A DNA stretch of 64,000 bases, taken from positions 782,175-846,174 of the forward strand of contig NC_087078.1 of the NCBI RefSeq assembly GCF_026151205.1. Direction: 5' to 3'. The DNA is from Bolinopsis microptera (Eukaryota > Ctenophora > Tentaculata > Lobata > Bolinopsidae). Made by a program: the position numbers and the translations under genes. The notes beneath the pieces were generated by a model that made no database searches, was not told the DNA's origin, and was given only the letters and a program-made list of their open reading frames with translations. Below are positions 3,101 through 36,699 of the stretch, piece after piece. Numbering within the stretch: the first letter of the stretch is position 1; every line of letters starts with the position of its first letter.

Positions 3101-6100
3101 TACCGCTATATCTGATACTAACAAAAAGATGCCGTAAAGTATTAGCACAACAATTACCGCTCTTTTCTTCACCTCAGCAAATGGGTAGACTATTTTTATT
3201 GTCCTGGAAACTGTCAAAAGCATCACCAAGAACATCGAGAATTTCTGCAAAAGCGAGAAAAATATCGTCCAAAAAGTACAAAACGCTTTGACGTTGAAAA
3301 GCCCAGGTTGTCTGTGATTTAGAAGCACACCCACTATCGGGAAATGAGCCATCCCGGTTCCCATATCCACCACAGTTATACAAATGTAGAGGATGGTGGG
3401 CAAATTCTTTGGTCTAGAGACAAAGTAGCGGAATGCAAGACTGTTTCCGATAGTTGAAAGAAAGAAGAAAGGAATGAACTGGAGCCCGATAGTGATGTCC
3501 CAAATGTGGGCGTTGCTCACGTCCTCCTCGCTGAAGTTTCCGGTTATCTTCATCCTGAAAAGATAGTATGATCCAACAAATGATCCAAATCAGAGTATCA
3601 AATCAGAATATAAAAATGATAAATTGTAAAGTAAAGAGTGGTTTTTGCGTGTAAAACGCTGAGATAAAGGGCAGTGCAGACGTAACGAATACTGCACATT
3701 TTAACTGATCATCAGTCAAGAAGCCAGGAGAACTTCTTGATTTACTGCACATTAGAGTGGCGGCTTCCTTGCAAGATATCTTGCAGTATATATTCTGATT
3801 AGGGTATTCAACCTAATAATATCTCGATAAGATTATCGCCGATAATTGGGTCTAAATCTTTATTGATTTATCTCGATAATTTGGTACTGATAACCGATCA
3901 AATTAAGCAAAAAGTCTTCTGGCTAAACCACAGAAATTTTAGATTCAGTTCCTGATAAATTTACTATTTCTCATGATTTCTGATAGACTAAACCGCAACA
4001 TACAAAACATCCAAATTCCAAGCTGACTTCAGCAAAACTGTAAAAACGTTATGATATCGCAGCACGAGAGCGAATAGAGAGCGAACATAAACAAATGCCA
4101 CAAATTTTAACTAATTCTCAACAAGCCAGATCTTGATTACTGCACATTAATTTGGCGTCATACTTCCTTGCAGTAGATCCAAACTGATCTCAACAAAGCT
4201 GGGAAAATTCACACCTCAACGAAACTGAGATACTAAAGTGTCAAATTAGCCAAAAATAATCAGCGATGAAAGACAATGTTAACCAAGCTGTTACAATGTT
4301 AAATACTTCACGTGAAACCAGGCTCTTGTTGTTGTCTAGGAGAGGAGGTATTATAATTAACGCAGCGAAGAATGGAACGTTTAACTGCAGTTGGTGTCAG
4401 ACAAACTCTGATAATACCATATAACTAAACCTTCTTTCTAAGACTTCCTAGAGAAACATTTGGGTGCCGGGCGGGAATGGTATGCATCCTGTTCAAACTT
4501 ACTTTATGTAATTAATTATTAATGTCCTCAAATACGTTATATTCGACAAATCATAATTATAAATAACTGCCAGTAACCACAGTGTCATGTTTCAGTAAAG
4601 GAACTAAGAGCCGGATATTTAATGGTTGACAGTCTTGTTAAGATAAGCGCTATTAAACCTGACTCAGTTAAACTACACAACCTGTCTTCTTCCGAGGTGA
4701 GCGCTTTCAAATATTTCATTGGTAATTAATAATTATGTAATTAATATATGCAAGCTTTTGAGAATCATGAGGGGCCGCGAAACTATTTGTTTCGCAATGC
4801 AAATGTTGAAAGGAAATGGAAGTTATGGCTCCAATAATATAATTATATTTATAATTACTGGACGAGGTTTACAACTTTAAGTATCCAAATAAGGTCACTT
4901 TATAAACCTTTTTAACCATAGTTATTTAATTTGACGTCTTTGATCTGCGCTTAATTATTAAATTGGAACAGATTAAAAGTACATTTAAGGGAAACGCCTA
5001 TTGTTTTAACGAAAATTTTCAACTAATAAATAAAAGTAGTAAAAACAGAGCTTAAGTCTTATATTTCTCTAATAACAAATCTTTACCTAAACATCTTTTA
5101 ACTGATGCATTTGAATATTGTAGTCATTACTCGCCTAAAAAGTAAAGTCCTTGAAAAAAAGTAAAGTCCTGATAAGTTCCAGGACCGGAGATATCATGTG
5201 CATTGTGCAGTGCAGGGTAAAGTAAGGTAAAGTAAGGTAAAGTAAGGTAAAGGTAGAATTTAGTTTAATAAAATTCATTATAACTTTGTCGGGGAGTTGA
5301 GCGGCTAGTTAATAGACTTGAGAGATAGAAGACCTGTATCTCCCTTCAACACAACGCGAACGGTTGTTAAACAAATGCTTAAAGTTAATACTGTTACGGA
5401 GAGTCTAGCGAGTCACCCCCCCCCCCCCCCCCTCCTTAAAGTTAATACTGTTACGGAGAGTCTAGCGAGTCACCCCCCCCCCCTCCTTAAAGTTAATACT
5501 GTTACGGAGAGTCTAGCGAGTCACCCCCCCCCCCCCCTCCTTAAAGTTAATACTGTTACGGAGAGTCTAGCGAATGACCCCCCCCCCCCCCCCCCCCCCC
5601 GTAGTGAGTCTCTACTCTCTACACTCTAATATGAGATAACAAAACAACCACAGAGCCTGTACACCACAAATAAATGGCACTTTTCTTTAATATTATAACC
5701 GTTATTTAACCGCTATCGGGGCACATCACAGAACTAGTATTATATTGAACTATTATATAAAACTAGTTTTAAAACATGCCGCTAAACTTGACCTTGTAAC
5801 AGAGCGGACTTGAAGTAACCATGGTAACAGAGCGGAATTTGGCGAATTAACAAAATGAAGTACAATTTACCTAAACTATAGCTATGTGAACTATGTGCAG
5901 AATCTGGTGAGGTGCCCCACTATGCTATGTTACCTATAGCTCTGACGAATGATAGACTGGCATTATCCCTCTACTTCATATATATATAGCTGTACTCTCT
6001 ATGATGTCACCGTGGTAACACCACTGTACACCTCGTAACACCATAGTAACACCTAGTCAGTCCCCCTGTCATTACCCGCTTGTTTATCACCAGTCTAGTC

Positions 6101-8699: not shown

Positions 8700-11600
8700 G
8701 TAAGATTTGTTTAACCTTTTAAATAAAGATATTAATATTAAATCACTGGTAAGACTTAATAACCTATTACAATATTAATTTTTGGTTCAATGTAGGATTT
8801 TTATTTACGGCACTAACGCCTATAAACTACCTACAGTCAACAATAGAATATACACGTGCACATTTCATAGGTTATATACAGTAAGTTACAAGTAATAACA
8901 ATGTTATCTCTGCAATCATGTAAAAAGAAGGATGTGAAAGTATGCGAATATTCTTATCAGCAGAAACTGGTCATGAAGTAACTAAAATGTATCTGAAAAT
9001 TGCGTGATAGCGCATTAAACAGTATCATACAGTGTAATACAGTGTAATAGAGTCCGAGAGGTCTTTCATTTCTTTGAGTGCTAGTTTGCCTGTCCAATAG
9101 TCCCGTACGATTATTTAAGAAAATCGGATCTAGGACAAAGTTTATCCATATTTATTTCCGGCCATACAGTTAAAGTTCTTGTGCTGATAGCAGATGTTTG
9201 AAAATTGTCAATCAGGCTGATCGTGACGTATTTGTCATTGTTCAGTGTTCACTGTATTGTATTACTACTTGGGAGGACTTGTTACCTCAAAATAACGATT
9301 AAATACATAAATAATATTTATGGATTGATTAAATATTCTCATAACTGGCAGGCTAATATTAATTGAAATTCACAAACACTTAAGTTGTCGTTTAGTTCGC
9401 TCACTACGCAGTATTCTCTCAATCAAGTTCTTTTCTTGATAGTTTTATAGATTGCGCTGATAAATTCTCGGTTTGACCAATTTTTGAGTTGCTACTTTCA
9501 CGTGAAATCATTCTGACCAAACATCTCCGTTTATGGTGCATATACGGTAGTAAAATAGAAATTACATAAATCGCCCCAAAGTAATAATTATACGACTACA
9601 TATCTACTATTTATTAATATCGAGTACTTATACTATGCAGTACAAGACAAGGTCCCAAACATAACGCAGAAATCTATCAATCAACATTATTTCCTCCTTT
9701 TTAAATAGTCCTATGCTTAATTCTGCTAGCGAACAATCGTTCAACTGTAGTTATCAGCTGGTGATATGTTACAATATTTGTAAAATTGACACATTTCATT
9801 CGTTTTTCTGATTATATCGTGTGAACTTTCAGGGACATCCTTCCATTCAATACTTTAAATCGCCTTGTGCCCACAACATAGTCTCTTACCTGCCCGGGCA
9901 AGTCTCCTAACCTGCCCGGGCAGGTTCGTGTGACGTCATCACTGAATAACCACGTGACGCCTCTAGACAATCATTAATTATATACTCCTGTTCCTGGAGG
10001 GCCCTGAGTCACGTGGTGTGTATATTGTGCTGTGATTGGTTGATTACCCCCTGCTAAAGCTACTATTAGTAGAGAGCCTGGGAGAGCTAGAGTGGCATGT
10101 GGTTGGACTAAGCAGTATAAACCTGCAAGCCCCTCAAAACATATGCACTGTCTTCCTTGAGCTGCAGAGTGTGCTCCACAAATATTTGCTTTTTCTTTTT
10201 TTAAAGTTTTTAGGCGAGCTTTGAAAAGACCTGATTTTGTTTTATATTAAGGACTTATAGGGCTATGACTAGTCTTGCTTCTCGTAAAAACACCAATCAT
10301 GGGCCTATGTTCTGCAATAAACGGGGTATGTTATCACTTCTACTATCTTCACCCTACTTAGAAGTTTAACCGACGGTATGAAACTGTGTAGGATTGGTGT
10401 AATCTGGTCTTGAAATTAAGTTGTAATTTCATTTATCGGTCAGTGCCCTTGATTTTAATAAGTTATCTCATTTCAGATGGTCGTAAAGAGATCGTACATT
10501 TCGACAAGATAACATCCCGTATCCAGAAGCTCATGTACAATCTCAACACTGAGTTTGTTGATCCAGTAAGTTAATTTTCAGTATGATTATCCTCATTATA
10601 TTGGTGACATGATGGTTTATAAACGGGTCCATTGCATCAGTAATAAGAATTTTACAACTTTTAGTTTTTTACCTTCTTTTTACCTTTTTTTTCAGCACAC
10701 AATAACTAAGAATGTTATAAATGGTGTTTACAAAGGAGTAACTACAGTGGAACTGGACATGTTAGCAGCGGAGACAGCAGCATCTCTTGCTACTGAACAT
10801 CCTGACTACGCAGTGCTCGCTGCGCGTATTGTTGTTAGTAACCTGCACAAGGAAACTAAGAAGGTAAGCTACTGAACATCCTGACTACGTCCTCGCTGCG
10901 CGTATTGTTGTTAGTAACCTGCACAAGGAAACTAAGAAGGTAAGCTACTGAACATCCTGACTACGCGGTGCTCGCTGCGCGTATTGTTGTTAGTAACCTG
11001 CACAAGGAAACTAAGAAGGTAAGCTACTGAACATCCTGACTACGTCCTCGCTGCGCGTATTGTTGTTAGTAACCTGCACAAGGAAACTAAGAAGGTAAGC
11101 TACTGAACATCCTGACTACGCGGTGCTCGCTGCACGTATTGTTGTTAGTAACCTGCACAAGGAAACTAAGAAGGTAAGCTACTGAACATCCTGACTACGC
11201 GGTGCTCGCTGCACGTATTGTTGTTAGTAACCTGCACAAGGAAACTAAGAAGGTAAGCTACTGAACATCCTGACTACGCGGTGCTCGCTGCGCGTATTGT
11301 TGTTAGTAACCTGCACAAGGAAACTAAGAAGGTAAGCTACTGAACATCCTGACTACGCAGTGCTCGCTGCGCGTATTGTTGTTAGTAACCTGCACAAGGA
11401 AACTAAGAAGGTCAGTTTGAGAGTCTACCATGATCAAAGTAGTGGTTTACATTTACCTTAATGCTCAAGCACCTAAAAAACAAAATAGTATGATGATTTG
11501 ATACCCATATAATGGACGTAATCAGGGTTTCAAAAATAAATATTCAAAATATTTACTAAAACAGATACATTTATCTGTCTTGTTTTGATAATGACTGTCC

Positions 11601-14600
11601 TAACAGTTGTTCAGTGACACAATGGAGGACCTCTACAATCACATCAACCCGGACACTAACAGACACGCTCCCCTTATCTCTACTGAACTGATTAACCTTA
11701 TCAGAGCTAATAAGGACACTCTAAACTCTGTTCTTATCTATGACAGGTGAGCATTTCAACTTATTTTTATTGACTTTAATCTTTATCTGTCGATCTTTTA
11801 CAGCTGTTTATTTCAAGAAAATTCAAAACCCTTTGGGAATAAATGTTTTGTTATAACGATTTTCTCATTTGGCTGACATAGCATAAAATAACAAACGAAT
11901 ATTTCCAGGGATTTCAGTTACAACTACTTCGGGATAAAAACTCTGGAGAAGACCTACCTGTTGAAAATAAACGGGAAAGTAGTGGAGCGACCCCAGCATA
12001 TGTTGATGAGAGTCTCCCTTGGTGAATTCTATTTTTGATTCATTTTTAATTTTAGGAGAAATCATTTCTTGTGCGACGAAGTAGATATAATAAGGTTATC
12101 TTATTACGAATCGAACAGTTTACAACATGTACAAGTGCACCTACAGGATTTGGTGTTCTATTTTAATTTTATATCTATATACTACTATGAAATGCAGGTA
12201 AATATCCATAACTGACCGGACTATTACCCTTATTACCCTGTTTAAGATTATTCTATCTGTTACTGGAGTGACAAATAAGGGAGTATTAATGTACCTGCCC
12301 CAAAATCAAACCTCTAAATCAAGAACGATATAAACAAAATAATACGCGATATTTTTACCTTTTAAGAATAAAATAATAGCGAACAACTCAGCGCGGGAAA
12401 CAAATATACATATAATACTAATAGTAATAGATTTGCATAGTTGATAAATAAACCTTGTACGTATTCTGTTTTCTGAACCATTCCTTGTTCATCTGCTGTT
12501 TCTTAGACCACTCATTGTTCATTTGCTGTTTCTTGGACAACTAATTGTTCATCTGCTGTTTCTTGGACAACTAATTGTTCATCTGCTGTTTCTTGGACAA
12601 CTATTTGTTCATCTGCTGTTTCTTGGACAACTATTTGTTCATCTGCTGTTTCTTGAACCACTCCTTGTTTGTCCACCACTAATATTTCTTCAGCTGTTTC
12701 TTGAACCATATCTTGTTCGTTTTGTATTTCTCGAACCACCCCGTGTCCACTTGGAAGATCTTGAACCAAGTCTTCTCTTTGAATTCTAACTTCCTCAAGT
12801 TCAATTGTTTCAACCCGATCAAACATGAAACGATCACGAATGCTTTGAACAATTGTTGAGTCCAACATTCGAGCTGTTAAACGCCTCATTGAATTGATGA
12901 AGAAGCTCGTTACGATATCATCATAAAGGAAGGGGTTTATCATAGAGTTTATTGGGAGAATTATCATCGAGAAAAGACTGTACCAAAGAGTGGCATCCAG
13001 GACTTCTAAGGAGTGGAGAACGCAGATTATGATGAAAGGCACCCAACAAGCGAAATCTGTGCCAATGATGATAGCAATTTTCTGGTTCATTCTACGGTTT
13101 CTGTTGGATATTTGTCTATTACCCTGCAAGTTTGTTAGACTTTTAGAGGATCTGAGGGAAACCAGTCCAATGAGGATGTAAGACAGTGTTATTATCATGA
13201 AGCATATAAAGTTGAGAATAAGAATACCCCAAACGAAGATTTTTTGAGGATCGTTGCTTTTAACGAAGTACTTGAAGAGGCACACACCATCACTACCGTA
13301 AAAGTCAACTTTTGTCTGTTTCAAAGTATAATCATGATAATCTAAATCGTGAGAGTACATTCCAGAAACCATTTGTCTTATTGTGTCCCAACTTAAAGTG
13401 GCTGTTTTCATCCGTCCATAATAGGCTTCAAGAACATCAAAGATCAATTTTTTATCAGGTGTTCCTATAAATAAACTTAAATCTTCGTTGAACTTCAATC
13501 CATTAACAAAAAAGTCCTCGAATTGGTCGATAACCGGTATGATAGCAATTGCTGCAGATGCCAGAGCTAAGCCGAAGATCCCAGTCGTTACTTGGACTGC
13601 TTTCAACCTGGTAACCTCCCCTGGAACTCTCATTGAGTTCCATATACCATAGATCCTGACAGTGCTGAGAACTGTCATGGAGAATAGTGAGATTTGCGAT
13701 CCAATCGTACTGAAAATACCGATAACAGAACATTCGATACTTGTGATCCAAGTTATTCGGCGGAGGCAGTAGTCCTTCTTGAAAATGATGCTATCGTAAA
13801 TGGCTATTACAATCAGGTAGCACCCAATCAAGAAGTCTCCTAAGGATATCAATATAACGAGCGATTTATTCATCAATGCTACTGAAGTCTGGCAACGAGT
13901 TAATGTCAGAAGATTCTTCGTCACGATGACTGAATTTGCGAGAATAGCCAGAGACCCTATTAGCCACGACAGTCCTTCAAGAGAGCCATTTTGTAAAATT
14001 TGCTTTGAACAGAGGTCATTACATTCATCCGAACCATCCATGCAATCGAAGGAACCATCACAAACCTTAACTTTGGGAATTAAACGAGATGTAGATAGAC
14101 ATGTGAAGTGGTTGTCACAACGCTTTTCGTCTGATCCATCTCCACAGTCTTTAGCCAAATCACAGACTTGAGAGTAGTCGACACACCTGATTTTGTCGTC
14201 ACACACAAAATATCGGTTTGTGAACACGTCTCCGTGCGCCTTAGTGAAGAATGCAAGGTATTCTTCGTTTGCTATGGTTCCCACTCGATCTGGATATTGG
14301 GCTGGACAGACCTCATATCTTGGAATCTCCCTAAGAGGACAAGGAGAGCTGGAGCATTTATCTACACAGCTAGTATAAACGTATTGCTCCCCGAATATGT
14401 TTGAACAATCTTGCTTGTTTGAGGGGAGATGCAGAGTAGTTTTGGTGTCAACCCCAAAAAATTCGTGATTCGGAAAAATAAACTGTTGTGATGTACAGCT
14501 TCCTCTTTGCATTTCTATCTGCATTAAACCTTTCAGACAATAAGAAATTCGTTTGGTCAGGCCCTTGTCTGATGTTGGTAACGGGCGAGTTGTTTCCATA

Positions 14601-17600
14601 GAGTTACGGGAATATAAACATATTTCATTCTCATTTCCGCAAGTTTCAATTCCATCACATAGATCCTTAACCTCAACATATCCAGGGTTTCCCCATCGAC
14701 AAACAAAAACATTTTCACATGCTTCTTCGCTAGAAACAAGTCGATATGATTGTCCAACTCCACAGGTAGGCCAGATGGCAGCCTCATCGCTTCCATCAAC
14801 ACAATCTTGGATACCATCCCCTAACCATACCAAGGGTATCGTGAGGTTTCCTAGACCTCCGACTCTTCTCTCACAGGTTCTTTGGGTGACAGATTGACAG
14901 TGGGGGTGTCTTTCATCAGCTTTATTTTCACAATAAAATTGGCCATCACACATAAAGTGCTTGTGTATAAAGCATGGTTCTGTTAACTGTTTACACATCT
15001 GTTCGATCCCATCGTCACAAATGATCCCGTGTTGATAACATATCATATATTTTGAGACTGTTGAAATATATCCGTTTATTCTACAAATTATGCCTATCTT
15101 GGAGTGGTCAGTGCAGTTTGATTGAGATTGAACTAAATCCTTGCATAAATTATTATGATAAATGTTTCCGAAGATCTGTATAAAAACATTACATCGTGTG
15201 AAATTAAGAACTGGCACCAGTTGCCCAGTGCGAGCATGTTGACATGTGTCCAATGTTTTATTTGTCACCTGACAGTTAGATTCATCATCACCATTGTCAC
15301 ATCTTTGGAGTCCATCACAAATCAACTCAGGGTTAATGTATTCATAGAAAGTGCTCCCTTTATTGTCAGTAGCATTGCAGTACATTCCATAGGTATACCC
15401 ATTGCATACGGCTTCATCTTCACAAGACAGAAAGTAGTCACATACGTCATCACAGATGTGAGGACTAAAGATTACTCCACCACTCGGCATTATGCTCGTT
15501 GTATTAGGACAGTTTGTTTCATCAATACCAGAGTCACAATCTACATTACCACTACAAACGAAGCCAAATCCTTCTAACATAGCTGAGAAAACGTATAGAT
15601 CACCGAGCCAATTTAATTTACACACGAAATACTCACAAAGGAACTTATCGTTGGTTACTCGTCCTCCAGATGCTTTATCACAAGCTTGGTAAAAGAACGA
15701 ATCATTTGTGCAGATTTCTCCGGAAACAAATCCATTTCTGATAATTGTATCATATGTTTCCTCAGAATTATGGCATTTGTTGTAGGAGGTCTCTTTCTTG
15801 CATACGTACTTTAGGAAGCCACGCTGTTCTTGAATCTGGCATGACGTCTCTGAAGCGTGATTGATCATTTCTTTCAAAACAGAAAGCATTTGTTTTACAT
15901 AAGTCAGAGCTAGTATCAAGATCAAATTTGAATTGACGCAGAATAATTTTCAATCGGAGGGCTGAGAGTATCATACTGTTCACTATAATATGTTATGCAC
16001 TTCAGCATTTAGACCATTGTAGTGCGAAGCACTACTAGTACTGGGCCGCGCCGCTTATCTGTTATCAAATAATTCTCCTCGTAACCACAGTGACAATTGA
16101 TTGGCAAGATGCACTACTGAGCCTCACCGAGCTGCGAAGGATTGACATCGTCAATCAATTCAGACCATTGATTTAATTGTAAATTATTCGAAGATATTGA
16201 CTTTAGAACTAAACTTACCCGATGTTGACTGCGAAAGAGTCGTCACAAAAAGAGCGATCAGAGTAACAGTAGTTTTCGGTATCATCAATGTACAGTAAAT
16301 ATAACAGTTACTTCAATATTAAGGAGAGCGTGTAATGGGGGAGGCAAGCTCTCGAGTCTCGAGGCTTGTGGAAAAATCATGCTAATTTTGTATTTCCCTC
16401 AAGAGGGCAGTATTGTTTGAGTACGGATTATGTGATTAACCTGCAGCCGAGAGTCTTAGCGAGTGGCTAGTTGATAACAAAGCCTGCACACTCCAAGTCC
16501 AAGACACTGTGCACAGTGTATTGGGCGAGGAGTTTGAGATCAGAGTGATCTGGAAATTAACTCTCTGTTGAACTCAGAGCTGGTTGGTGTTATAAACGAT
16601 GACTATTCAAAAGGTATCCCGCCAGGTTAGGAGGTAATGACACGGAGCGTCAGTTTGTTATGATAATATGGCGGTGATTATGTGGCCTTTCTCTTCAACA
16701 GTGGAGGTAGAATTTGGATGAGTTGTACATACAATCATACAGAATGTTAAGCAGCCCTTACCTTGATAGAGTGTGTGTAACAAGCAACTAAACGGTTCAC
16801 CAAATGTGGAAAAGACAAAGTTTAACTTTTTTCCACTTATAAATATTTTACCGGGGTAAGGACAGGGCTCCAATGCTCTATCTTATAGTGGTCACCCTGA
16901 CCACTGCCCCCTACGAAGAAGAAGAACATTGCCCGCTATGAATTTGGAAATTAATTCCTGCCGTGGAGTTCACTGTAATATAAATTCTCACAAAGTTTTC
17001 GTAAAATAATTTTTAGAAAATCCAAGAATACAAATCAACTAAATCAAGTATCCAACAATTTGCAATAATATAGATATAATACTCCGAACTAGTCGACGGC
17101 CCTCGTCCGTACTCCCTACATATGCGTAGAATCTAAATATGTGTGTAGCCGATTACTGTATTACTATTAGCTTATTACTATTACTATTAGTATAATACTA
17201 GGACAAAATATATAATCACTCCTCAGTCATATTCAATCTATATTCAATCTACATAACAGTAAGTTAAAGAACTTAAGTTATAAATATAACACCATGATCA
17301 CTATGACTTTGATTCTAGAGTTCAGAAAAAGAGTAAAACACTCATTTAAAAATCACTAAAAATGTTCACAATGTTTTGGAAAGTTTTTGGCGGTCATGAG
17401 CGTGAATAATTATGTCCGTGAAAAATTTGGGGGGAGAGAGAGCGAGAGTGGAAGAGAGGAGAGTACATGAAACACTCTAGTATAAAATTTGGGTCACAAA
17501 ACCATCCATTTAAACCATTACCACCGGCCGATTTAGAAAACATAAATTACTTGGCTTCGTCAGAGTTTTATTGAAAAATTTTATCATAATATCGATAGAA

Positions 17601-20600
17601 ATAGTTTAATATTTCAATATTTGAACTTGACCACTGAGTTTCTCTAACAAGTCAGTCATATGTTTCAAGTCTTGCAGTGTTTTACCTGCCCCGTGCTGAG
17701 GATCACGAAACAACACTACTGAACAGTAAACTCTAGCACGTGATATAAACGAATAAAGAGATTTGATATCTTCATCTCCGTTAGGGTTAAAAGCAGGATA
17801 CCCCCACAATCTGTGTAACACAATCACCACTGAAAACTCGGCTGAACTACTTAGATTACCATTAAAGAAACTGATTCTATTGCCCAAGTTATTATATCGT
17901 ACGATGATTTGTGAAAGTGAGGTTGCCAACTTTTTTATAACCGCGGCATTGATTGTTTCCATTATCACAGCTACGTGATAGTCAGAGTTATCTGTTGATC
18001 TCATGCTTTTATTATACGTTAGTTTATCCACTATCCAGCTCTTTGGATGCGATTGCACAAATTGTGTCCTCATGTGCAATTTCATCTGAATCATCTGAAA
18101 TATAAATCACTGTTCGAGGACCGTGTATGAAATGTCCGATCTCCTGTTTCCTCATCTGATATTTCTGGTTTTAAACCATAAACGTTGACAGTCTATAACT
18201 CTTAGGCCAATCGAATAATTATATTCCTATTTTGTCAGCAATAAGATTACATTGTTTTCTATTCGGTGTGAAAATATGAGCTAGAACAGACGTAATATCG
18301 AGTTATAGCTGTTTGAAATTTATGATGAACGCGCAGGTGTCCATTGATAACAACTAAATGCTCTTGTGCGTAGTATAGTATACAGTATAGCGCGTAGTAT
18401 AGTATTAGTGCGCGTCGAAAATTTGGCAAAAACGCTTTCGGAGTGACAATATTCAAACTTTGATAAAGTATATCAAGTGGGTACTTCTTGGAAAGGAAAA
18501 ATTTAGGCAAACACGATACAATTATTTTTGGGTTGATTTTCTACAACTGCAGATAATTAGATGCAGATAAGAAAATTATTCCAAATTTCAGCAAAAAAAG
18601 GGCACATTTTGACCACCTTTTTGGATTTTTACTCGGCTGTGTATCAGCTATCTTCATGCAAATTTTACCTACATGCCAACAAAGTTAACTTGCTCAAAAT
18701 ATCAAAAATATGAGTTTGTGTTAAAATTATGAATACCAAATTTAATTCTCATTCTACAGGAATTCACTGGGAAGATATCGACACTGCAATCGAAACTTAC
18801 AACTTAATGTCGGAGAAGTTCTTTACTCACGCCTCCCCTACTCTATTCAACTCGGGAACTGTGAGACCTCAACTCGCTAGGTATTTAGATTGGACGACAT
18901 TTCAGTGACCCTGACCGAACGTTCGACTGAATTAGTATCTTCAGCTCCTATCCTGAATTGATGTTAAATTTCCTTTGTCCAAACTCCAAAGTGACAACTT
19001 CTGTCTTCACCTTAGGGTTCTAACATTTGCGTTCCCGCCAAACGGAACGTAACGCGCGAAAACTTTTACGTCTGTAATATAAAAAAGACATTTTGTGAGT
19101 TCCTCGAAACGCGCATTTGATGCGCGTTTTGCATGCAACGACAGTTCGCGGCAAATTTGGGTTTTGTACATGGAGATGTAAGTTTCTTACCCGGATGTGC
19201 GCGGTCAATAGTTTGCTCGAAACTTTAGAACAAAATTAGTTATGAATCCAAATAGATTGTGCAGTCTAGGTGTAGTTTTAGACCTTAACAAAAAGCTGAG
19301 CACATCCGGAATAACAAGTCGCTAACAATGCTGTTCACATCCAGATGTTCGTTAAATTTTCCTAAAAAGGCCTTTTCAGCTGCTTCTTGTTAGAATGCTC
19401 GGATAGCATGGACGCTATTTACGACACTCTCAAGAACTGTGCCATCTTGGCTGCTCATGCTGGCGGCTGTGGCCTTTCCATTCAAAGTATCCGAGCTCAA
19501 GGGAGTTTCATACAAGGCAGCAACGGAACAAGCTCTGGAATTGTTCCCTTGCTACAAGTGTATAATAACACTACGAGATATGTTGACCAGGGCGGCAAGG
19601 TTTGAGACTTGTTACTTTTAGTAGTGTGTACTGAGTCATACTCACTCCCTTCACTTTCATTTCAGTTGTTTCCTATTGACTATGACTGATGACAGTATCG
19701 ACGGTATCTACGACACCTTAAAGCAGTGCGCCATGATAAGCAAATCAGCAGGAGGTAAGCTTCTTACCTTACCTACCTTCTAGCTACTACTAGTACTAGC
19801 TATACTTCTAGCTACTCATAATAATTGTTCTTCTTTATATGTTCGATTAGAAAAGCACTTGCACCTTCTTTTACTGGCTTTATTGAGTTATCTGCCCCGG
19901 CATAAGTTATATGTCTTGCTACTCTATCTTGGCACGCGCTGCTGCACAACATTCTGATCATTACATTTTGACCCACCATTTCCTCAGGGATTGGTGTGAA
20001 CGTGCACAATATTCGAGCTAAATTACAAACTAACCAATCAGAGAGCTGTATTCTAGTCACGTGACCCACCATCTCCCCAGGGATTGGTGTGAACGTGCAC
20101 AATATTCGAGCTAAAGGTAGCTACATCTGGGGAACTGGGGGAAGCAGCAACGGCCTCGTGCCCATGCTTAGAGTGTTCAATAACACTGCTAGATATGTCG
20201 ATCAGGGTGGCAATAAGGTATGACTGACGCACAACAACAACATTTTCATCTGTTTCACGAGTGCTGTGTTGATTCAGTATACACTTACTTAAATTAAATT
20301 AAGTTATTTGTTTTTGGTAGAACTTTTGTATTTTATGGTTCAAATTTCTGTCAACTTCTTAACCACCATTCTTGATTTGAACCATTTTGCAGAGACCAGG
20401 TTCATTTGCAATCTACCTGGAACCATGGCATGCAGATGTGTTTGATTTCTTGGATTTGAGGAAGAACACTGGTAAGGAAGAGGCTCGAGCAAGGGATTTG
20501 TTCTATGCTTTATGGATTCCTGATCTGTTTATGAAAAGGGTAAGCGAAACTAATAGTCTAACAATCAACATTCGTATATTAGATTTCCGGACTGCACCGC

Positions 20601-23600
20601 CTTTACTGAGATCTATCTATAAAACATTTCACACTTAAAACTTGACGAAGTAACTGGAACCAGGTTGAAGCCAACGAAGACTGGTCCCTGTTCTGTCCCA
20701 ACGAGTCACCTGGTCTCCAAGACACGTGGGGTGACGACTTTGAGAAACTGTACGTGCAGTATGAACGTGAGGGCCGAGCCCGCAAAACTATAAAGGCGCA
20801 GAAACTTTGGTTTGCTATTATTGATAGTCAAATTGAGACTGGGACTCCGTATATGGTTTACAAGGATGCGTGTAATAAGAAGAGTAATCAGCAGAACCTA
20901 GGGACGATCAAATGTAGCAACCTCTGCACAGGTTGGTATTTATTAGCACTTTCAAATGTAGCAACCTCTGCACAGGTTGGTATTTATTAGCACTTTCAAA
21001 TGTAGCAACCTCTGCACAGGTTGGTATTTATTAGCACTTTCAAATGTAGCAACCTCTGCACAGGTTGGTATTTATTAGCACTTTCAAATGTAGCAACCTC
21101 TGCACAGGTTGGTATTTATTAGCACTTTCAAATGTAGCAACCTCTGCACAGGTTGGTATTTATTAGCACTTTCAAATGTAGCAACCTCTGCACAGGTTGG
21201 TATTTATTAGCACTTTCAAATGTAGCAACCTCTGCACAGGTTGGTATTTATTAGCACTTTCAAATGTAGCAACCTCTGCACAGGTTGGTATTTATTAGCA
21301 CTTTTGTGTCTTGGTTGATATAATCTATTTTTCAATCTCCCCATCGTTTTATCACTGGCCACATTGTTGTAAGTCAACAATTATTTCAGAAAAGAAACAA
21401 AAAAAACAATTATTTCAGAGATTGTCGAGTACTCCTCGCCTGACGAGATTGCCGTGTGCAACTTGGCCAGTATAGCTGTCAATATGTACGTTAATAACGA
21501 CAAGACGTACGACTTTGAGGGACTCAAGGAGGTTGCTAAGGTAAGAATATTAAGATTTTAGTAATAATTACTTTCTTGGATAAGAATCTAGAGTGTCACG
21601 TCCCTTTATACTTTTGAAAATAATAAATTCAGTAAAGAATCATTTTTGTATAGGTAATAACAAGATGTATACAGTATATTAAGTAATGAAATATTAAATC
21701 GTCCAAAAATATTGAAGCAATTTATGAATAACCTCTCAGAACGCTTATCATGTACAGCATTTTGACATCAAATATGTTCAAATAAATCGGTTTTTATATT
21801 AAAAGGACTAAAAGCTCAATGTTCTGATACACAGAAAAACAGGGATAAGTCATATTTTTCATCTTTTAAAAAACAAATTACTACAGTTAACTCCTGATCA
21901 GGTTCTTGCTAGTAGAGTCCGTGAAGCCAACTTCCGATAGGGTATCCACTTCTTCTTCTTCTTCGCTCTCTTGTGCGCAATAACTTTGTGATTAGTGCAG
22001 TTGATTTCATCTGAAAAGTCACCACAATCATCAACAAGATCACACACCTGATGGTACTCCACACATTTACTGTTTTTGCACTGGAAGAAGTTTTGTTCGT
22101 ACAGACCCTCAGGGTTGGTATCTGTCACGAAAGTAAGGTATGACTTGTTAGCTAGCGTGTATATTCTGTCAGGGTACTGGCCTGGACACGAGTTGTGGAT
22201 CAGGGGGGTGGTTTCTAGAGGGCACACGGAGTCTAGGCAGAGATCTAAACAACTTAGGTACACATACGACTCTCCAAAAATATTACTGCAATCTATTTTG
22301 GAGGAAGGAACGTTTACACGGATCCTTGCTGCTCCGAAAACATCAACTAAAGGTCGTGAGAATTCTTTAACGGAACAAACCTCCCTCTCTGGAACCCCCA
22401 TATAACGACATATATCTTTAACTGAGCCCTGATACGGAACAGTATTGTCAATGCGAGGGAGGTCTCCAGCAGTCTCACAAGTAGACATTCCGCAAGTCTC
22501 ATTCTCACCACACAGAAGATCAACATCTACAAACGGGATGGCTCCTCGTGGACACCTATATATGTCCTGACATGATGCGTTATCATAGTCTAACTTAACT
22601 CGGAATGTCCCACTTTCCTTGTCCCCACAAAACATCCAACGTTCAAGATTGGAATAATGACTAACAGTTGAATCTTCATCGACTCCGTTCAAACAGTCTA
22701 TCTCGTTATCCAATATCCAGGCGACAGGGAAGGGTAAACTTTGGGTGTCCCGACCAAACGATCGTTTACATTCGTGAGCAGAAGTCATTAAATTGCACAA
22801 ATTATTGGTCTCATCACTACCATCTGAGCAGTCCATCACTCCATCGCACATCCTGTGTTTGTGTACTCTACAAGAAGTGGAGGGTGAGATGCAAGCGTTT
22901 TCCATTCCATCATCACACAGTTTCACTGGCATGGGGACTCCAAGTGTGTCAGAATAATCAAGACAAATCATAGTTTTAGAAATACTAGACATAAACCCGT
23001 TCACATTGCAATAACCCCCCACCCGTGCAATATCCGTACAGTTAGTCTGATCTAAGTAGTTGTGACAGTAGGGACGGTTATATCCCACTATATCAAACAC
23101 AGAGCATCTCGTGTAGTTGAGAATAGGAACAGCTACATATTCCCCCATTTCGAGGAGATTGGAATGAGGACAGGGGTGGGGGGTGTCACGTGACGTGACG
23201 TCATTCATCAGACAGTCCTGCTCATCCTCATAGTTATCACAAGCTGCATACCCGTCACACACTCTGTAGGGGGGCACGTAGATGTAAGTACCATACCTGG
23301 AACAGATAGCCAATCAGAGAGCTGTATTCTAGTCACTTGATACAAACTAGCCAATCAGAGAGCTGTATTCTAGTCACGTGATACAAACTAGCCAATCAGA
23401 GAGCTGTATTCTAGTCACGTGATACAAACTAGCCAATCAGAGAGCTGTATTCTAGTCACTTGATACAAACTAGCCAATCAGAGAGCTGTATTCTAGTCAC
23501 TTGATACAAACTAGCCAATCAGAGAGCTGTATTCTAGTCACGTGATACAAATACAGATTAAGTTAGTTTAAACAGTTTACCATACCTGGAGCAGAACACC

Positions 23601-26600
23601 CCGTAGGTGTACCCGTTACAATCCCCTTCATCTTCACATAACCAGAGGTCACACTTCCCGTCACATACTGTGGAGGACTCCAGTTTAACGGAGGTACCCT
23701 CTGTTGGAGGTTTGGTACACTCTGTCTGAGACCCACAGTTCTCTTCACATCTGCTAAAACTGTAGGTTGTTGCTGCCTCCTTACAGAAGTAGCCTCCACA
23801 CAGAACATCTGTGTTGGTTATCTCCGTGTTAAATCCACATACCTGGTACGAATACGGGTCGTTCTTACAGATATCAGTAACACTGTTTATAGCATAAGTA
23901 AAGGAGACCCTGTCAAACTCGAAGTTACCCTCGTAACTCGCATCTGAATAGGCACAAGTGAACTGGTACTGAGACTTCACCCCATCACTCGCGCACACTT
24001 TCTTAAGAAACCCTCCTACAGCAGCTACAACACACTCCTCTTCAGATTGTCTCATCTTTCTGACTATCCTGTAGTCAGTACACCCCGGACAGTAGCACTG
24101 GTCAGGTTTGTTCCCACACCAGCCGTAATAGTACTCACAACAGGGTCGCTCACTGTCCGGGTCACATTCAGCACTCCGGCCGTCCTGGAGAGGATGCCAC
24201 TTCCCACACCTCCCGTCATCTCGCCATGTCTTGTACTCATCTGGGGGAATAAATAAAAACATGAGCTACCAGCTGCTAGATGGAGCCCCAATCAATGTAA
24301 TCTCTAACAAATCTGCATATAATAATTAATATAAGGGGTGTTTTTAAAAAGTGGCATTACTTCAGGCCCCCCTCCCCCGCTCCTTACCAGGTAATATGGT
24401 AGCCGAAGTAAGGTGTTCCTGAGGTACGCTTGTTGTTTGCCATGTATTCGTCGATGAACTACCTGCCAAAATGACATGACTTGACGGCAGTTCGTATAGG
24501 ACAAGCTTATATTCAATGTTATTAAATGGGTATATACATCGAAAGTAATCGATAAAAGAAGCAACAAATATAACCTTACCCCCCCCCCCCCCCCACGTGT
24601 ATAGCTTCGAATAAAAGAAGCAACAAATATAACGCCCCTCCCCCCTACGTGTCTAGCTTCAAATAAAAGAAGCATAAAATATAACGCCCCCTCCTCTCCC
24701 CCCCTCCCCTACGTGTCTAGCTTCAAATAAAAGAAGCAACAAATATTACGCCCCCCCCCCCCCGGCCACTATGTGTCTAGCTTCAAATCACCTCTTGTTG
24801 TATCATCTGTTTGTAATCTCCTGAATTTCCCTGACTCTGTAGGATATGTAGGGTATGTAGGATATGTAGGGTCGTGATGCGCAACACCTGAAAATGTATT
24901 ACTGTAGAAGTTATTAACACTAAGGAAGTTATTTCTTCAAGCACTTATCGGAAAAATTCAAACAATAAAACAATTCAAACCTATTTTCAAGAGAATCAGT
25001 TGCACCACCAGAAGAATCCGAACTCTAGTCAAGAATACCCGTTTCATATCAGAGTTATGAAATACTGGCTGCTGTTCCCTCTATTGAAACATGAACATTT
25101 TATGAACAACGCAGGGGTGTAGGAATGATTTCATCATGGGGGGCCAAATTTTAAATATTTTTTAGCCATAGCCTGAATTTCAAAAAATGTTCGGGCAAGG
25201 ACAAAAGGAAATTGCGGCATGTGCAGAATCTCGATTTTTTCCCATTCTCCGCGAAAAATCGCGATTTTTCACGTTTGCCGCGACAAATCGCACATTTTCC
25301 TTTAAGTCTGAGGACCAAATTCGCGTATTTTCCTTCAAATCTGCGGGCCAAATATCACGTTTTCTATAAGTATATGAAACCAATCACAGCCTTCAGTAGT
25401 TTCCAGAAAAACTTTGAAAAATGTTGACTCGAAGTCATTCTCGATACGTAGCTCTGAAGGCAGAGCTCCCGCTTCCGAGCTCGTATTGGCAATTGCGAAG
25501 GGGAGGCCTGCCTTCCGAGATTGCATTACAAAGGGGAACCCTCGAGTCCAAAATCTTATATCGAAGGGTAGGTGCGGACTTCGAAAACCGAAAAAAAATA
25601 TTTTCTGCTCATAATGATCAGGGAAGCATGAAACATGAATAAAAGTAGTTTCCAGAAAAATTGGGGGGGGGGGGGGCCTCCCCCGCTTCTTATTCCTTCT
25701 CACAATTTGAGAAGTAATGAGCATTTATTATGATAAGTGCGGGTAAGATATAATTATATCGATTTGAATTTTTTGACAAGACAAGATATTTTACTAAAGC
25801 AGACAATATTGAAGAAGGTCATGGAACTAGTTGGATAATGACCATTTTTTCTGAACGTGCCCGTGAGTATAATGACAAGCTATCATAAACTGAGTTATTA
25901 TCTAATTTATTAAGGGTAACCGGAAGTATTTCGAACATAAATATGTCTTGTAAGGTATATAATAGCGATGCGTAAAGTTGCTGACGCAAGGGATCTAAAA
26001 ATAAATTTGATTATTAATCTTACTATTATATGAAGCGAGACGATATATATGGGGGGTTCCGTACCATTTTACTGACACCACGGCATCAACTTTAACGCGA
26101 CTTTCCACAAAAACCGTAAAAGATATACAACTGAAACTTTTTTGACTGGGTCAAATGTTTTAATGGCCTCAAAATCAGCATGAAAAAATAAAAAATTGGC
26201 CAAGAAATAGGAGTTTTAGAGCCCAAATTTTGGACCCCCAAGTGGTGTCAAAAACGCGAATTAAATAGGTAATAATTATTTTAGTCTCTTGAGTCTTGAC
26301 ACCATTTTTGGGTTATACGGGTTCCTACTAGTTGATATAATATGTTGCACAGTAAAAGTTTTGCACGGTTGACGTGCTTTATTTAAGATGGCTGAGGACG
26401 TGGTAAGCATAAAACTTGCTCAACTCAAAATCTTTAGCGCCGTGGAATGTCAAAGGATAACGAATCGCTGCAAAACATAACGTATAAACACAGTGTAGAA
26501 TGTAGATGTTAGTCGACAACAGAAAGAAATGATCTGTCCATTACATTCTAATGATCACAGACTTAATTATACGCCGGCAGACATTTTTGAGTTCCTTAAT

Positions 26601-29600
26601 TAATAGAATTATATTTTAATATAATTTAATTGATAATATAAAACCGATTGAATTGCTATGTCGGTTATATTCAAAATGTTGATAGAATAAAGGGTGGTCG
26701 ACCCTGAACAGAAATTGAACAATTACGAATTTGTCTGCAAAATAGTTACGAACTGAATTATGAATATTCGATTCAAATGATAAGAACAGATTAAAAATGG
26801 AGTGGTTTTGTTTTACTGTCCTTAGTTCGGCGTTGTTACTGCCGACTTCGGGTCTGGTCCGATTCCTAGAATTAGTAAGATCTCATTCATTGTTCGGTTA
26901 CTTAGATCAACTATTAGCTTATTAGGTACCTAAAGAACATTATTATTCATCCTACATCTTCAATAAATCACTCTAAAAGAAAGTGTTGCCAAACATAGGT
27001 GGAAAAGTAGCCAAACGTTTCAATATCTATCAATTTTTACATGAAATATCCTGTAGGTTGTGTATAATGTATAATGTATAATGTATTATGTAGGTGGTGT
27101 ATAATGTATAATGTATATGTAGGTGGTGTATAACGTATAATGTATATATAATGTATAATATATCCTTTAGGTGGTGACGAGGAACCTGAACAAAGTAATC
27201 GAAGTGTCCTACTACCCGCTGGAGCAAGCCAGGAAGTCCAACATGAGACACAGACCTATTGGAATTGGAGTTCAGGTCAGTTGCAACTTGAAGTTAGTAG
27301 TCTTTGACGGCAGACGTATTAAACGGATTAAACGTTAATTAAACGTATTATCGAGAATAATATCAACATTTTAGTAAGATGTATCAGAAATCAGTTTACA
27401 AAGTTAATGCGATAAGTGTGATAAGTGTGAACATTTTCTATATCCCAATCGAAGTCTGCTCCCGTTTTTTAATTCACATTATTTTTATTTTCTCGTTTTA
27501 ATAAATGTTCTCGGTGATACTCCTGCCGTCAAAAGGGACTATTTAGGGACTTTGTTTCAGGAGTGCATGATTTAACCACCCACATTCTCGATCTCCGTAT
27601 TCATTCTTCTATTTTGACTATACAACTTATTGTATTGTTAAACTGTCTCAGGGTCTAGCTGATGCCTTCATTCTGATGAGGTATCCATTTGACAGTGACT
27701 CAGCTAAAAAACTGAACATTAAGATATTCGAGACTATCTACTACGGTGCCTTAGAGGCTAGTTCAGAACTAGCTGAAAAACTTGGACCTTACGAGACATA
27801 CGAAGGTTAGTTTTATACAAAATAATTCATCCGTTATTATTAGTAATAGTAGTTATTTTTATAGAAATTAGAGCTAATTACATAATTGAGAGCTAATTAC
27901 CATAATTACATAATTAATTCCAGGCAGTCCAGTTAGTAAAGGAGATCTTCAGTTCGACATGTGGGGAGTTACACCAACTGATCTCTGGGACTGGGCAGCT
28001 CTTAAGAAACAGATCAAGAGGTCAGTCAACTTATATAACTTATATAACTTATATAACTTATATAACTTATATAACTTATATAACTTATATAACTTTTATA
28101 ACTTATATAACTTATATAACTTATATAACTTATATAACTTATACAACTTATATAACTTAGATAATTTGTATAACTTTCAATATAACTAATATCACTTTGT
28201 TTTGCACACTATAGTTTTTGATTAACAGCCCTTATAACTTGACCCCCCCCCCCCCCCCCCCTACATTAAATGTAATCTTTTTCTCAGAACTGGTATAAGG
28301 AACTCATTGTTGCTGGCTCCCATGCCAACCGCCAGCACAGCACAGATTCTGGGAAACAACGAGGCTATAGAACCTTACACCAGCAACATCTACCTCCGGA
28401 GAGTCCTGAGTGGAGAATTCCAGGTTTACTAGTTACCATAGTTACACTACTAGTTCCTAGTTCCAGGTTTACTAGTTACCATAGTTACACTACTAGTTCC
28501 TAGTTTAAGGTTACTTTGCTGGTTACGCTTCACAGTCTTTCTCCTAATTAGATGATTCATCTTAGACGAAGAACGTTCCTGATTTTTTGGCGGTTTGCCA
28601 AGATTTGCACGTACATTACTCAGCACATGTTTCAGGTGATAAACCAGCATTTGTTACGTGATCTGACTGATCTAGGAGTGTGGGATAGTGACATCAAACA
28701 ACAGATGATAGCTGATAATGGGTCTATTCAGAGGTAACATATACTATTGTTTAGTAACTACCAAAGTCTTGTAATTACCAAGTAATTAAGTAATTAATTG
28801 TAATTATTGGATTTCTTAAAGGTTCTGATTCCTTGAAGTGTAGATGAAAGTATGATATATAATGTTTAAATCACTAATATGTATTAAGTTAAATGGTAGT
28901 TAATATGCAATGATTCAGGATAGAAGGTAATTAATATGCAATGTTTCAGGATAGCAGGTAGTTAATATGCAATGTTTCAGGATAGAAGGTAGTTAATATG
29001 CAATGTTTCAGGATATAAGGTAGTTAATATGCAATGTTTCAGGATAGAAGGTAGTTAATATGCAATGTTTCAGGATAGAAGGTAGTTAATATGCAATGTT
29101 TCAGGATATAAGGTAGTTAATATGCAATGTTTCAGGATAGAAGGTAGTTAATATGCAATGTTTCAGGATAGAAGGTAGTTAATATGCAATGTTTCAGGAT
29201 AGAAGGTAGTTAATATGCAATGTTTCAGGATATAAGGTAGTTAATATGCAATGTTTCAGGATAGAAGGTAATTAATATGCAATGTTTCAGGATAGAAGGT
29301 AGTTAATATGCAATGTTTCAGGATAGAAGGTAGTTAATATGCAATGTTTCAGGATAGAAGGTAATTAATATGCAATGTTTCAGGATAGAAGGTAGTTAAT
29401 ATGCAATGTTTCAGGATAGAAGGTAGTTAATATGCAATGATTCAGGATAGAAGGTAGTTAATATGCAATGTTTCAGGATAGAAGGTAGTTAATATGCAAT
29501 GATTCAGGATAGAAGGTAATTAATATGCAATGATTCAGGATAGAAGGTAATTAATATGCAATGTTTCAGGATAGAAGGTAATTAATATGCAATGTTTCAG

Positions 29601-32600
29601 GATAGAAGGTAGTTAATATGCAATGTTTCAGGATAGAAGGTAGTTAATATGCAATGTTTCAGGATAGAAGGTAGTTAATATGCAATGTTTCAGGATATAA
29701 GGTAGTTAATATGCAATGTTTCAGGATAGAAGGTAATTAATATGCAATGTTTCAGGATAGAAGGTAGTTAATATGCAATGATTCAGGATAGAAGGTAATT
29801 AATATGCAATGTTTCAGGATAGAAGGTAGTTAATATGCAATGATTCAGGATAGAAGGTAATTAATATGCAATGTTTCAGGATAGAAGGTAATTAATATGC
29901 AATGTTTCAGGATAGAAGGTAGTTAATATGCAATGTTTCAGGATAGAAGGTAGTTAATATGCAATGTTTCAGGATAGAAGGTAATTAATATGCAATGTTT
30001 CAGGATAGAAGGTAGTTAATATGCAATGTTTCAGGATAGAAGGTAATTAATATGCAATGTTTCAGGATAGAAGGTAATTAATATGCAATGTTTCAGGATA
30101 GAAGGTAATTAATATGCAATGTTTCAGGATAGAAGGTAATTAATATGCAATGTTTCAGGATAGAAGGTAATTAATATGCAATGTTTCAGGATAGAAGGTA
30201 ATTAATATGCAATGTTTCAGGATAGAAGGTAATTAATATGCAATGTTTCAGGATAGAAGGTAATTAATATGCAATGTTTCAGGATAGAAGGTAATTAATA
30301 TGCAATGTTTCAGGATAGAAGGTAGTTAATATGCAATGTTTCAGGATAGAAGGTAGTTAATATGCAATGATTCAGGATAGAAGGTAATTAATATGCAATG
30401 TTTCAGGATAGAAGGTAATTAATATGCAATGTTTCAGGATAGAAGGTAGTTAATATGCAATGTTTCAGGATAGAAGGTAGTTAATATGCAATGTTTCAGG
30501 ATAGAAGGTAATTAATATGCAATGTTTCAGGATAGAAGGTAGTTAATATGCAATGTTTCAGGATAGAAGGTAGTTAATATGCAATGTTTCAGGATAGAAG
30601 GTAGTTAATATGCAATGTTTCAGGATAGAAGGTAATTAATATGCAATGTTTCAGGATAGAAGGTAGTTAATATGCAATGTTTCAGGATAGAAGGTAATTA
30701 ATATGCAATGTTTCAGGATAGAAGGTAATTAATATGCAATGTTTCAGGATAGAAGGTAGTTAATATGCAATGTTTCAGGATAGAAGGTAATTAATATGCA
30801 ATGTTTCAGGATAGAAGGTAGTTAATATGCAATGTTTCAGGATAGAAGGTAGTTAATATGCAATGATTCAGGATAGAAGGTAATTAATATGCAATGTTTC
30901 AGGATAGAAGGTAGTTAATATGCAATGTTTCAGGATAGAAGGTAGTTAATATGCAATGTTTCAGGATAGAAGGTAATTAATATGCAATGTTTCAGGATAG
31001 AAGGTAGTTAATATGCAATGTTTCAGGATAGAAGGTAGTTAATATGCAATGTTTCAGGATAGAAGGTAATTAATATGCAATGTTTCAGGATAGAAGGTAG
31101 TTAATATGCAATGTTTCAGGATAGAAGGTAGTTAATATGCAATGTTTCAGGATAGAAGGTAGTTAATATGCAATGTTTCAGGATAGAAGGTAGTTAATAT
31201 GCAATGTTTCAGGATAGAAGGTAATTAATATGCAATGTTTCAGGATAGAAGGTAGTTAATATGCAATGTTTCAGGATAGAAGGTAATTAATATGCAATGT
31301 TTCAGGATAGAAGGTAGTTAATATGCAATGTTTCAGGATAGAAGGTAGTTAATATGCAATGTTTCAGGATAGAAGGTAGTTAATATGCAATGTTTCAGGA
31401 TAGAAGGTAGTTAATATGCAATGTTTCAGGATAGAAGGTAGTTAATATGCAATGTTTCAGGATAGAAGGTAGTTAATATGCAATGTTTCAGGATAGAAGG
31501 TAGTTAATATGCAATGTTTCAGGATAGAAGGTAGTTAATATGCAATGTTTCAGGATAGAAGGTAGTTAATATGCAATGTTTCAGGATAGAAGGTAGTTAA
31601 TATGCAATGTTTCAGGATAGAAGGTAGTTAATATGCAATGTTTCAGGATAGAAGGTAGTTAATATGCAATGTTTCAGGATAGAAGGTAGTTAATATGCAA
31701 TGTTTCAGGATAGAAGGTAATTAATATGCAATGTTTCAGGATAGAAGGTAGTTAATATGCAATGTTTCAGGATAGAAGGTAGTTAATATGCAATGTTTCA
31801 GGATAGAAGGTAGTTAATATGCAATGTTTCAGGATAGAAGGTAGTTAATATGCAATGTTTCAGGATAGAAGGTAGTTAATATGCAATGTTTCAGGATAGA
31901 AGGTAGTTAATATGCAATGTTTCAGGATAGAAGGTAGTTAATATGCAATGTTTCAGGATAGAAGGTAGTTAATATGCAATGTTTCAGGATAGAAGGTAGT
32001 TAATATGCAATGTTTCAGGATAGAAGGTAGTTAATATGCAATGTTTCAGGATAGAAGGTAGTTAATATGCAATGTTTCAGGATAGAAGGTAGTTAATATG
32101 CAATGTTTCAGGATAGAAGGTAATTAATATGCAATGTTTCAGGATATAAGGTAGTTAATATGCAATGTTTCAGGATATAAGGTAGTTAATATGCAATGTT
32201 TCAGGATATAAGGTAGTTAATATGCAATGTTTCAGGATATAGAAGGTAGTTAATATGCAATGTTTCAGGATAGAAGGTAGTTAATATGCAATGTTTCAGG
32301 ATAGAAGGTAGTTAATATGCAATGTTTCAGGATAGAAGGTAGTTAATATGCAATGTTTCAGGATAGAAGGTAGTTAATATGCAATGTTTCAGGATAGAAG
32401 GTAGTTAATATGCAATGTTTCAGGATAGAAGGTAATTAATATGCAATGTTTCAGGATATAAGGTAGTTAATATGCAATGTTTCAGGATAGAAGGTAGTTA
32501 ATATGCAATGTTTCAGGATAGAAGGTAGTTAATATGCAATGTTTCAGGATAGAAGGTAGTTAATATGCAATGTTTCAGGATAGAAGGTAATTAATATGCA

Positions 32601-36386: not shown

Positions 36387-36616
36387 TGATTATGTAATTA
36401 ATCAATTAGCTAATTGAGCAGTGACCAAGAGAGACTGATTTTTAACATTTTTACGTACAACGTAGTGTTACAGCCAATATTTATAGATCTTTTTATGTTT
36501 ATTTAGAATTTTGCTTGCATGGATCTTTTTAAATTGTTTTCAAATTTCAATATTTATTTGATATTTCTACATTCGATTTGTATTTCCCTCTATTACATCT
36601 CCAATATACTAATTTC

Positions 36617-36622
36617 AATAAA
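36617..36622 (+). terminator. RRM1 polyadenylation signal AATAAA
   Basis: Canonical AATAAA about 230 bases after the RRM1 stop codon, at a usual distance for an animal 3' UTR. Confidence 0.6.
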
Positions 36623-36699
36623 AATGTGTTACATGTTAATCGACATTCAATCCAACCACAATCATGGTGCAGTGGCACATTTAAAATGATTGAATTTTT

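Follow-up and report, generated by a model that had tools for sequence, protein, structure and literature searches.

The window analysed here, a stretch of 64,000 nucleotides (nt) from the ctenophore Bolinopsis microptera (contig NC_087078.1, positions 782,175 to 846,174), carries on its + strand a complete gene for R1 of class I ribonucleotide reductase (RNR), whose 19 exons span positions 10265-36386. The seventh exon of this gene is present in two homologous forms, named here 7A and 7B, the latter being divided into 7B1 and 7B2. Exons 1 to 18 (10265-35352) are joined in frame by GT-AG junctions throughout, and the spliced length before the last exon is 791 residues with 7B and 789 with 7A. 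The features are as follows, in positions of the window:

10265-10325, 10477-10565, 10696-10863, 11607-11746 and 11909-12021, + strand: R1 exons 1-5, coding for the N-terminal portion, from the GT-AG frame model and tblastn with a viral R1, with a PF00317 match in exon 5
18760-18880, + strand: R1 exon 6, ending in ...LA plus AG (phase 2), the upstream partner of 7A and 7B alike
19380-19599, + strand: exon 7A, corresponding to human C218-K292, with no internal intron, two one-residue deletions and K243A
19600-19665, + strand: intron between 7A and 7B1, 66 nt, with three yTnAy sites
19666-19754, + strand: exon 7B1, first part of the family-typical segment
19988-20022, + strand: decoy 7B2 acceptor region, where the first 35 nt of 7B2 recur unchanged, preceded by an AG of their own, in a 93-bp tandem unit
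20081-20217, + strand: exon 7B2, second part of the segment, with loops 1 and 2 (W263, G266, GGNK)
20393-20539, + strand: R1 exon 8, starting at phase 0 and opening with R293 of loop 2, the downstream partner of both forms
20664-35352, + strand: R1 exons 9-18, with SNLCTE (C429), AVCNLA (C444) and GMYYLR (Y737-Y738)
36300-36386, + strand: R1 exon 19, with the C-terminal CLMC cysteines (ending CLMCSG) and the stop, from sequence and translation

Two forms of exon 7 in the R1 gene

A profile search of the entire 264.65-Mb assembly with PF00317 (N-terminal R1 domain) returned two matches, both in exons of the window gene, which is the sole R1 gene found in this assembly; a second R1 gene as the source of 7A was set aside on the same result. 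Matches to the human R1 chain reached E values of 2.6e-79 for the 7A version (162-residue stretch) and 2.2e-91 for the 7B version (164-residue stretch). The spliced model carries the catalytic and shuttle residues of a eukaryotic-type class I R1, namely C218, N427-C429-E431, C444, Y737-Y738 and a C-terminal CxxC. The residues C218, C429, C444, Y737 and Y738 are named for human R1 in the text available of PMC5819950. The SNLCTE, AVCNLA and GMYYLR elements all sit in exons common to both isoforms, and an ATP cone is expected in exons 1-5, by position alone. An assembly or pseudogene artefact was judged unlikely, the gene lying inside a 20.1-Mb contig with its full set of in-frame exons.

7A and the joined 7B1 and 7B2 align across the entire segment that corresponds to human S217-K292, with 45 of the 74 aligned residues identical (45/76 columns). 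An earlier reading made from the letters of this DNA (the sequence-only reading) had put this identity at about 60%; its exon coordinates, phases and GT-AG sites were all correct on recheck, and the swapped segment consists, as it had said, of the redox cysteine plus loops 1 and 2. The lengths are 220 nt for 7A and 226 nt for 7B (89 + 137, positions 19666-19754 and 20081-20217), and a 326-nt intron splits 7B at a place where 7A has none. Both forms enter from exon 6 at phase 2 (AG) and exit to exon 8 at phase 0, all sites being GT-AG. The R1 Pfam model scores 79 bits for 7A (E 4.4e-20), a match that indicates homology and not chance, while the pieces of 7B reach 48.6 and 27.2 bits; a genome search with 7A gave three matches at E values up to 1, namely 7A itself and these two pieces.

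The R1 frame is intact with 7A alone or with 7B alone. Recomputing the two other combinations gave the same result as the sequence-only reading: inclusion of both exons reads KLFPIDYD and then TGA, the stop being the eighth codon of 7B, and skipping of both shifts the frame and leads to a stop in exon 8. According to the sections available of PMC5740500, duplicated mutually exclusive exons are neighbouring internal exons that are homologous, of similar length, in the same frame and bounded by GT-AG, and the 7A/7B pair shows each of these properties. The usual form, with a single exon per alternative, which is our own wording and no published rule, does not describe this pair, 7B consisting of two exons. 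The mutual exclusion claimed by the sequence-only reading is thus favoured by the exon anatomy, as a prediction; the second deletion, the loss of Lys243, the intronless state of 7A, the length of the 66-nt intron and the decoy at 19988 are new with respect to that reading.

Splice sites and the probable choice of 7A or 7B

No listed intron of the R1 gene is shorter than the 66 nt that separate 7A from 7B1; the 16 others span 118-6738 nt. In chaperonin genes, 21 gaps below 600 nt between adjacent exon matches were all of at least 106 nt, these being rough values taken from match edges, with one gap perhaps intergenic. The A of the three yTnAy motifs in the 66-nt intron lies at +45, +54 and +60 from the 7A donor, that is, 22, 13 and 7 nt from the acceptor; the motif at +45 is the sole one at the usual acceptor distance and is the candidate branch point. 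For vertebrate cases, a donor-to-branch-point limit of about 50 nt for steric exclusion is given in the text available of PMC7969005 and PMC5740500. Steric exclusion of 7A-7B joining by this intron is therefore plausible: with donor and branch point less than about 50 nt apart, the intron would leave too little room for splicing 7A to 7B, the spliceosome would pick one of the two, and any leftover double inclusion or double skipping would run into a stop.

Splice sites were scored by a leave-one-out procedure trained on the R1 gene's own sites, with two large introns as background. The 7A donor ranks 11th of 20, and 9 of the 720 GT sites in the two large introns score as high. The decoy acceptor at 19988, located 93 bp upstream of the 7B2 acceptor and provided with its own pyrimidine tract, scores 10.0 against 8.91 for the true site (both left out of training), and an exon starting there contains an in-frame TGA. 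Any use of the decoy in the animal would therefore render some of the 7B transcripts unproductive.

The filler of the 93-bp duplication (19988-20080) resembles by eye a 41-bp repeat at 23307-23551. Four R1 introns hold minisatellites whose unit takes in the end of an exon together with the adjoining splice site: 79 bp x 8 at 10789-11412 (end of exon 3), 44 bp x 9 at 20908-21304 (end of exon 9), 31 bp x 137 at 28895-33153 (start of exon 16, unit ttcag|GATAGAA... then ggtagtt) and 72 bp x 19.5 at 33889-35242 (start of exon 18). This gene seems prone to the tandem growth of units bearing splice sites.

The stops met on double inclusion or on use of the decoy could also be the purpose of the arrangement. 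7A would then be a regulatory (poison) exon, whose joining to 7B, or the use of the decoy, would bring in a stop and have the mRNA destroyed, so that splicing would set the level of R1 and the protein encoded by 7A would be irrelevant. Such a role is consistent with the TGA as eighth codon on double inclusion and with the TGA behind a decoy that scores slightly above the true 7B2 acceptor. However, it leaves unexplained both the amino-acid conservation of 7A described below and the phases by which 7A can be spliced to exon 8 with the frame kept, and the 66-nt intron makes the joining of 7A to 7B unlikely; we consider this explanation quite improbable.

Descent of 7A and selection on it

7B is nearest to human R1 (84%). 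7A reaches up to 68.9% identity with Bacteroidota NrdA, against 60.8% with human R1 and 59.5% with 7B, and its best matches elsewhere remain at or below 66.2% in viral contigs, 60.8% in plasmids and 59.5% in phages. Scanning the viral contigs with short patterns taken from 7A alone led to one confirmed relative, at 41% (L092). As a foreign source for 7A, nothing in the viral contigs, prokaryote genomes, phages and plasmids searched was closer than the Bacteroidota NrdA. In a tree of 130 distinct segments (74-76 columns), 7A forms an end branch of 1.15 with no supported place. When 7A and 7B were held as one clade, the approximately unbiased test gave a P value (p-AU) of 0.61 and the likelihood was above that of the free tree; a clade of 7A, 7B and human R1 was not rejected either (p-AU 0.379).

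These comparisons bear on whether 7A is a duplicated 7B at all, or a segment captured from another R1, which could be an old paralogue or a gene gained by horizontal transfer. Capture would account for the intron that 7B has and 7A does not, for the greater similarity of 7A to Bacteroidota NrdA than to 7B or human R1, and for the EC-xDS motif and both gap positions that 7A has in common with E. coli NrdA. Against this, the clade of 7A and 7B is not rejected, no source nearer than Bacteroidota appears in any of the collections searched, the overall identity with E. coli NrdA is 26/79, and slowly changing bacterial sequences appear near by default to a long branch. We regard capture as unlikely. 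The simplest account of the origin of 7A would be a tandem duplication, followed by fast change and by one intron gain or loss.

Between 7A and 7B, synonymous differences are saturated (38.8/48.0 sites, pS 0.81), compared with 47.2/174.0 sites for nonsynonymous ones (pN 0.27), and 7A contains no stop and codon-sized gaps only. In a neutral simulation of 2000 runs from 7B down to the observed nucleotide identity, 197 runs were free of stops, and the residues kept were 24.7 on average and 36 at most out of 74, the observed number being 45. In a pairwise codon model, omega = 1 was poorer by a 2 delta-lnL (twice the log-likelihood difference) of 44.7; the free pairwise fit goes to unbounded time because synonymous sites are saturated, and it therefore gives no age for the duplication. 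A two-branch codon model, in which both branches had the same length of time and ten omega pairs were tried, gave a log-likelihood of -533.83 for a neutral 7A with a constrained 7B (1/0.02), of -522.21 for 0.1/0.03 and of -522.14 for 0.05/0.05, so that a neutral 7A differs from the best type of fit by a 2 delta-lnL of about 23. Since 7A has no stop and codon-sized gaps and a neutral 7A fits far worse, purifying selection has, on this comparison, constrained 7A during most of its existence. The neutral decay that the sequence-only reading had named, for close relatives, as the sign that would count against it is not what the comparison of 7A with 7B, within this one gene, shows. We conclude with high confidence that a duplicated, frame-locked exon kept by selection is real.

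Several observations nevertheless weigh against a working 7A today. The selection test averages over the whole history of 7A and is compatible with a recent loss of function. The end branch of 7A compares with 0.088 for 7B, which loosened constraint would fit too. The 7A acceptor is weak, ranking 16th of 21 with the decoy included, and is equalled by 63 of the 736 AG sites in the two large introns; such a site might suit a regulated exon and equally a decaying one. Finally, 7A departs from its relatives at S242A, M275L and A283T, three columns that are invariant in 140/140 distinct relatives. For these and the following counts, the relatives are 160 R1 stretches, of which 80 come from viral contigs (the best of 134) and 80 from prokaryotes (the best of at least 583), partly fetched via shared flanks; the relative L092 was left out of the 160, and column counts use the 140 distinct ones.

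The weak acceptor, the long branch and the changes at invariant columns would all be expected if 7A were a relic, an old duplicated exon that once worked and is now skipped or rarely spliced, 7B being the sole working exon. A relic, however, would have had to stay without stop or frameshift despite saturated synonymous divergence, in a comparison where the neutral model is clearly poorer, and to keep both splice sites intact with phases still equal to those of 7B. We hold this explanation to be unlikely, although it deserves appreciable weight.

Near the start of the same contig, at C7:13658-19153, the 3' half of the R1 gene is partly repeated, 92% identical to window positions 25751-36875, with exons 11-19 at 95.5-100%. 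This copy would stem either from a segmental duplication or from a second haplotype that was misplaced and, having no exon 7, is of no use as a test of 7A. It did serve to evaluate a candidate alternative C-terminal exon at 35761-36111, a 116-codon Q/N-rich frame with an in-phase acceptor and without CxxC. This candidate was dropped: its identity there, gaps included, is 92.6%, much like that of the stretch overall and below the 95.5-100% of exons 11-19, so that it diverges like non-coding DNA and is probably not coding.

Exon matches to R2 (small subunit) were found at one locus, C9:9699067-9700571, with a match below the family cut-off about 18 kb away (C9:9718312-9718428). Within R1 introns, but on the other strand, there are open frames for LDL-receptor class A domains at 12515-15949 (-), which also has a 7tm_1 match, and at 21901-23313 (-); near the R1 gene, two more rhodopsin-family receptor matches (PF00001) are located at 2489-3589 (-) and 45192-46475 (-).

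Predicted effect on the specificity site and known systems

7A keeps the redox C218 and the effector and substrate contacts D226, R256, G264 and Q288, R293 being supplied by exon 8; the contact residues of human R1, including Asp226 to the effector sugar, are those given in the text available of PMC5819950. It has Ala in place of Lys243, a position occupied by Lys or Gln in all 140 distinct relatives and by Ser at the aligned column of E. coli NrdA; in human R1, Lys243 contacts the effector phosphates (PMC5819950). Loop 2 reads DQGGKR in 7A versus DQGGNKR in 7B. The human loop 2 is described as one residue longer than that of E. coli, which adds a contact of the Gly289 carbonyl to the adenine of deoxyadenosine triphosphate (dATP) (PMC5819950), and the shorter loop 2 of 7A therefore has an E. 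coli-type Gln-Arg spacing. The same loop 2 length occurs in 13/160 relatives, all among the 80 viral ones. The second deletion of 7A, at human 224/225 within the 218-226 stretch, gives a length shared with 3/160 relatives and with E. coli NrdA, and both shortenings together are seen in one of the 160 (L079) and again in E. coli NrdA. Neither deletion therefore argues for a dead enzyme.

The sequence-only reading had described 7A as keeping C218 and the D226-S227 pair, with a shortened loop 2 and altered residues near the effector site. All of this agrees with our alignment, in which the effector contacts known from human R1 differ between 7A and 7B, and the shortening itself stands; it is less exotic than that reading had it, in view of the E. 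coli-like spacing and the relatives with the same length.

7B too has an unusual feature, in its loop 1, with W263 in 0/140 and G266 in 7/140 distinct relatives. One may ask whether 7A has by now become the principal exon, with 7B on its way out, the splicing of 7B being spoiled by the recent decoy before 7B2. The absence of W263 from all relatives would agree with this, as would the 35-nt copy identical to the start of 7B2, which gives a stop and whose acceptor outscores the true one. The 7B protein is however strongly conserved (84% to human), further tandem copies of exon ends exist in the R1 gene, and the decoy is read from a single assembled haplotype only; we consider a loss of 7B very improbable.

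We therefore propose, with moderate confidence, that exon 7 of this R1 exists in two alternative forms of which one or the other is spliced in, constituting a switch of the specificity site. Within this proposal, use of 7A as a mutually exclusive exon is likely, and an altered allosteric behaviour of the 7A form is a well-founded prediction. The 7A protein would be a working R1, with Cys218, Asp226, Arg256, Gln288 and Arg293 kept, without Lys243 and with an E. coli-type loop 2. Its response to effectors would be weaker or altered, the most plausible change being a looser preference of dATP and ATP for pyrimidine substrates.

Replication fidelity is governed by the balance of the deoxynucleoside triphosphates (dNTPs), and each RNR is regarded as having fixed allosteric rules. 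Both subunits of the dimer contribute to the specificity site, and isoform mixtures would therefore give mixed sites. We tentatively suggest, as a possibility less probable than the switch itself, that splicing sets the specificity site of the sole R1, that mixed 7A/7B dimers form composite sites with loop 2 of one subunit opposite loop 1 of the other, and that the ratio of the two splice forms adjusts, according to tissue or stage of the cell cycle, how the four dNTPs are balanced. If true, a natural pair of isoforms differing only in the specificity site would provide a ready-made experiment on loop 2 length, effector-phosphate contacts and substrate choice. It would, to our knowledge, be the first R1 with allosteric rules selected by splicing. 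Among the titles and abstract openings searched, mostly outside the subscription literature, for alternative splicing or mutual exclusion of RNR exons and for comb-jelly RNR, none describes such a switch, and in two catalogues of duplicated exons in human genes RRM1 is absent from the main text. The passage of an RNA label into DNA, which its authors tie to RNR, differs between animals, Mnemiopsis epidermis being like human cells in the text available of PMC12853894; this result speaks neither for nor against the splice-switch model.

Among known enzymes, E. coli class Ia NrdA resembles 7A in the Gln-Arg spacing of loop 2 (Q294/R298, PMC5819950) and in the one-residue gap near the redox cysteine, but differs by its 26/79 identity and as an intron-free bacterial gene with no exon choice. 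R1 genes in viral contigs, such as L061, L079, L082 and L085, also have a shortened loop 2, L079 having both shortenings; in contrast to the window gene, their short loop is read from a single open frame and no splice choice was seen. As regards splicing, exons 4a/4b of OGDH likewise represent an ancient exon duplication in a metabolic enzyme and offer the nearest precedent for exclusion imposed by a short intron, their branch points lying no more than about 50 nt from the donor upstream (PMC7969005); they concern a calcium response, and their branch points were mapped by experiment, whereas that of R1 is predicted. Exons 9/10 of PKM (PKM1/PKM2) are alike in that mutually exclusive exons of a metabolic enzyme swap a segment with distinct allostery (PMC3498831). 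The enzyme and the site are different, and PKM exchanges two single exons encoding a 56-residue segment, whereas R1 would exchange one exon for an exon pair with its intron and would include a redox-active cysteine within the swap.
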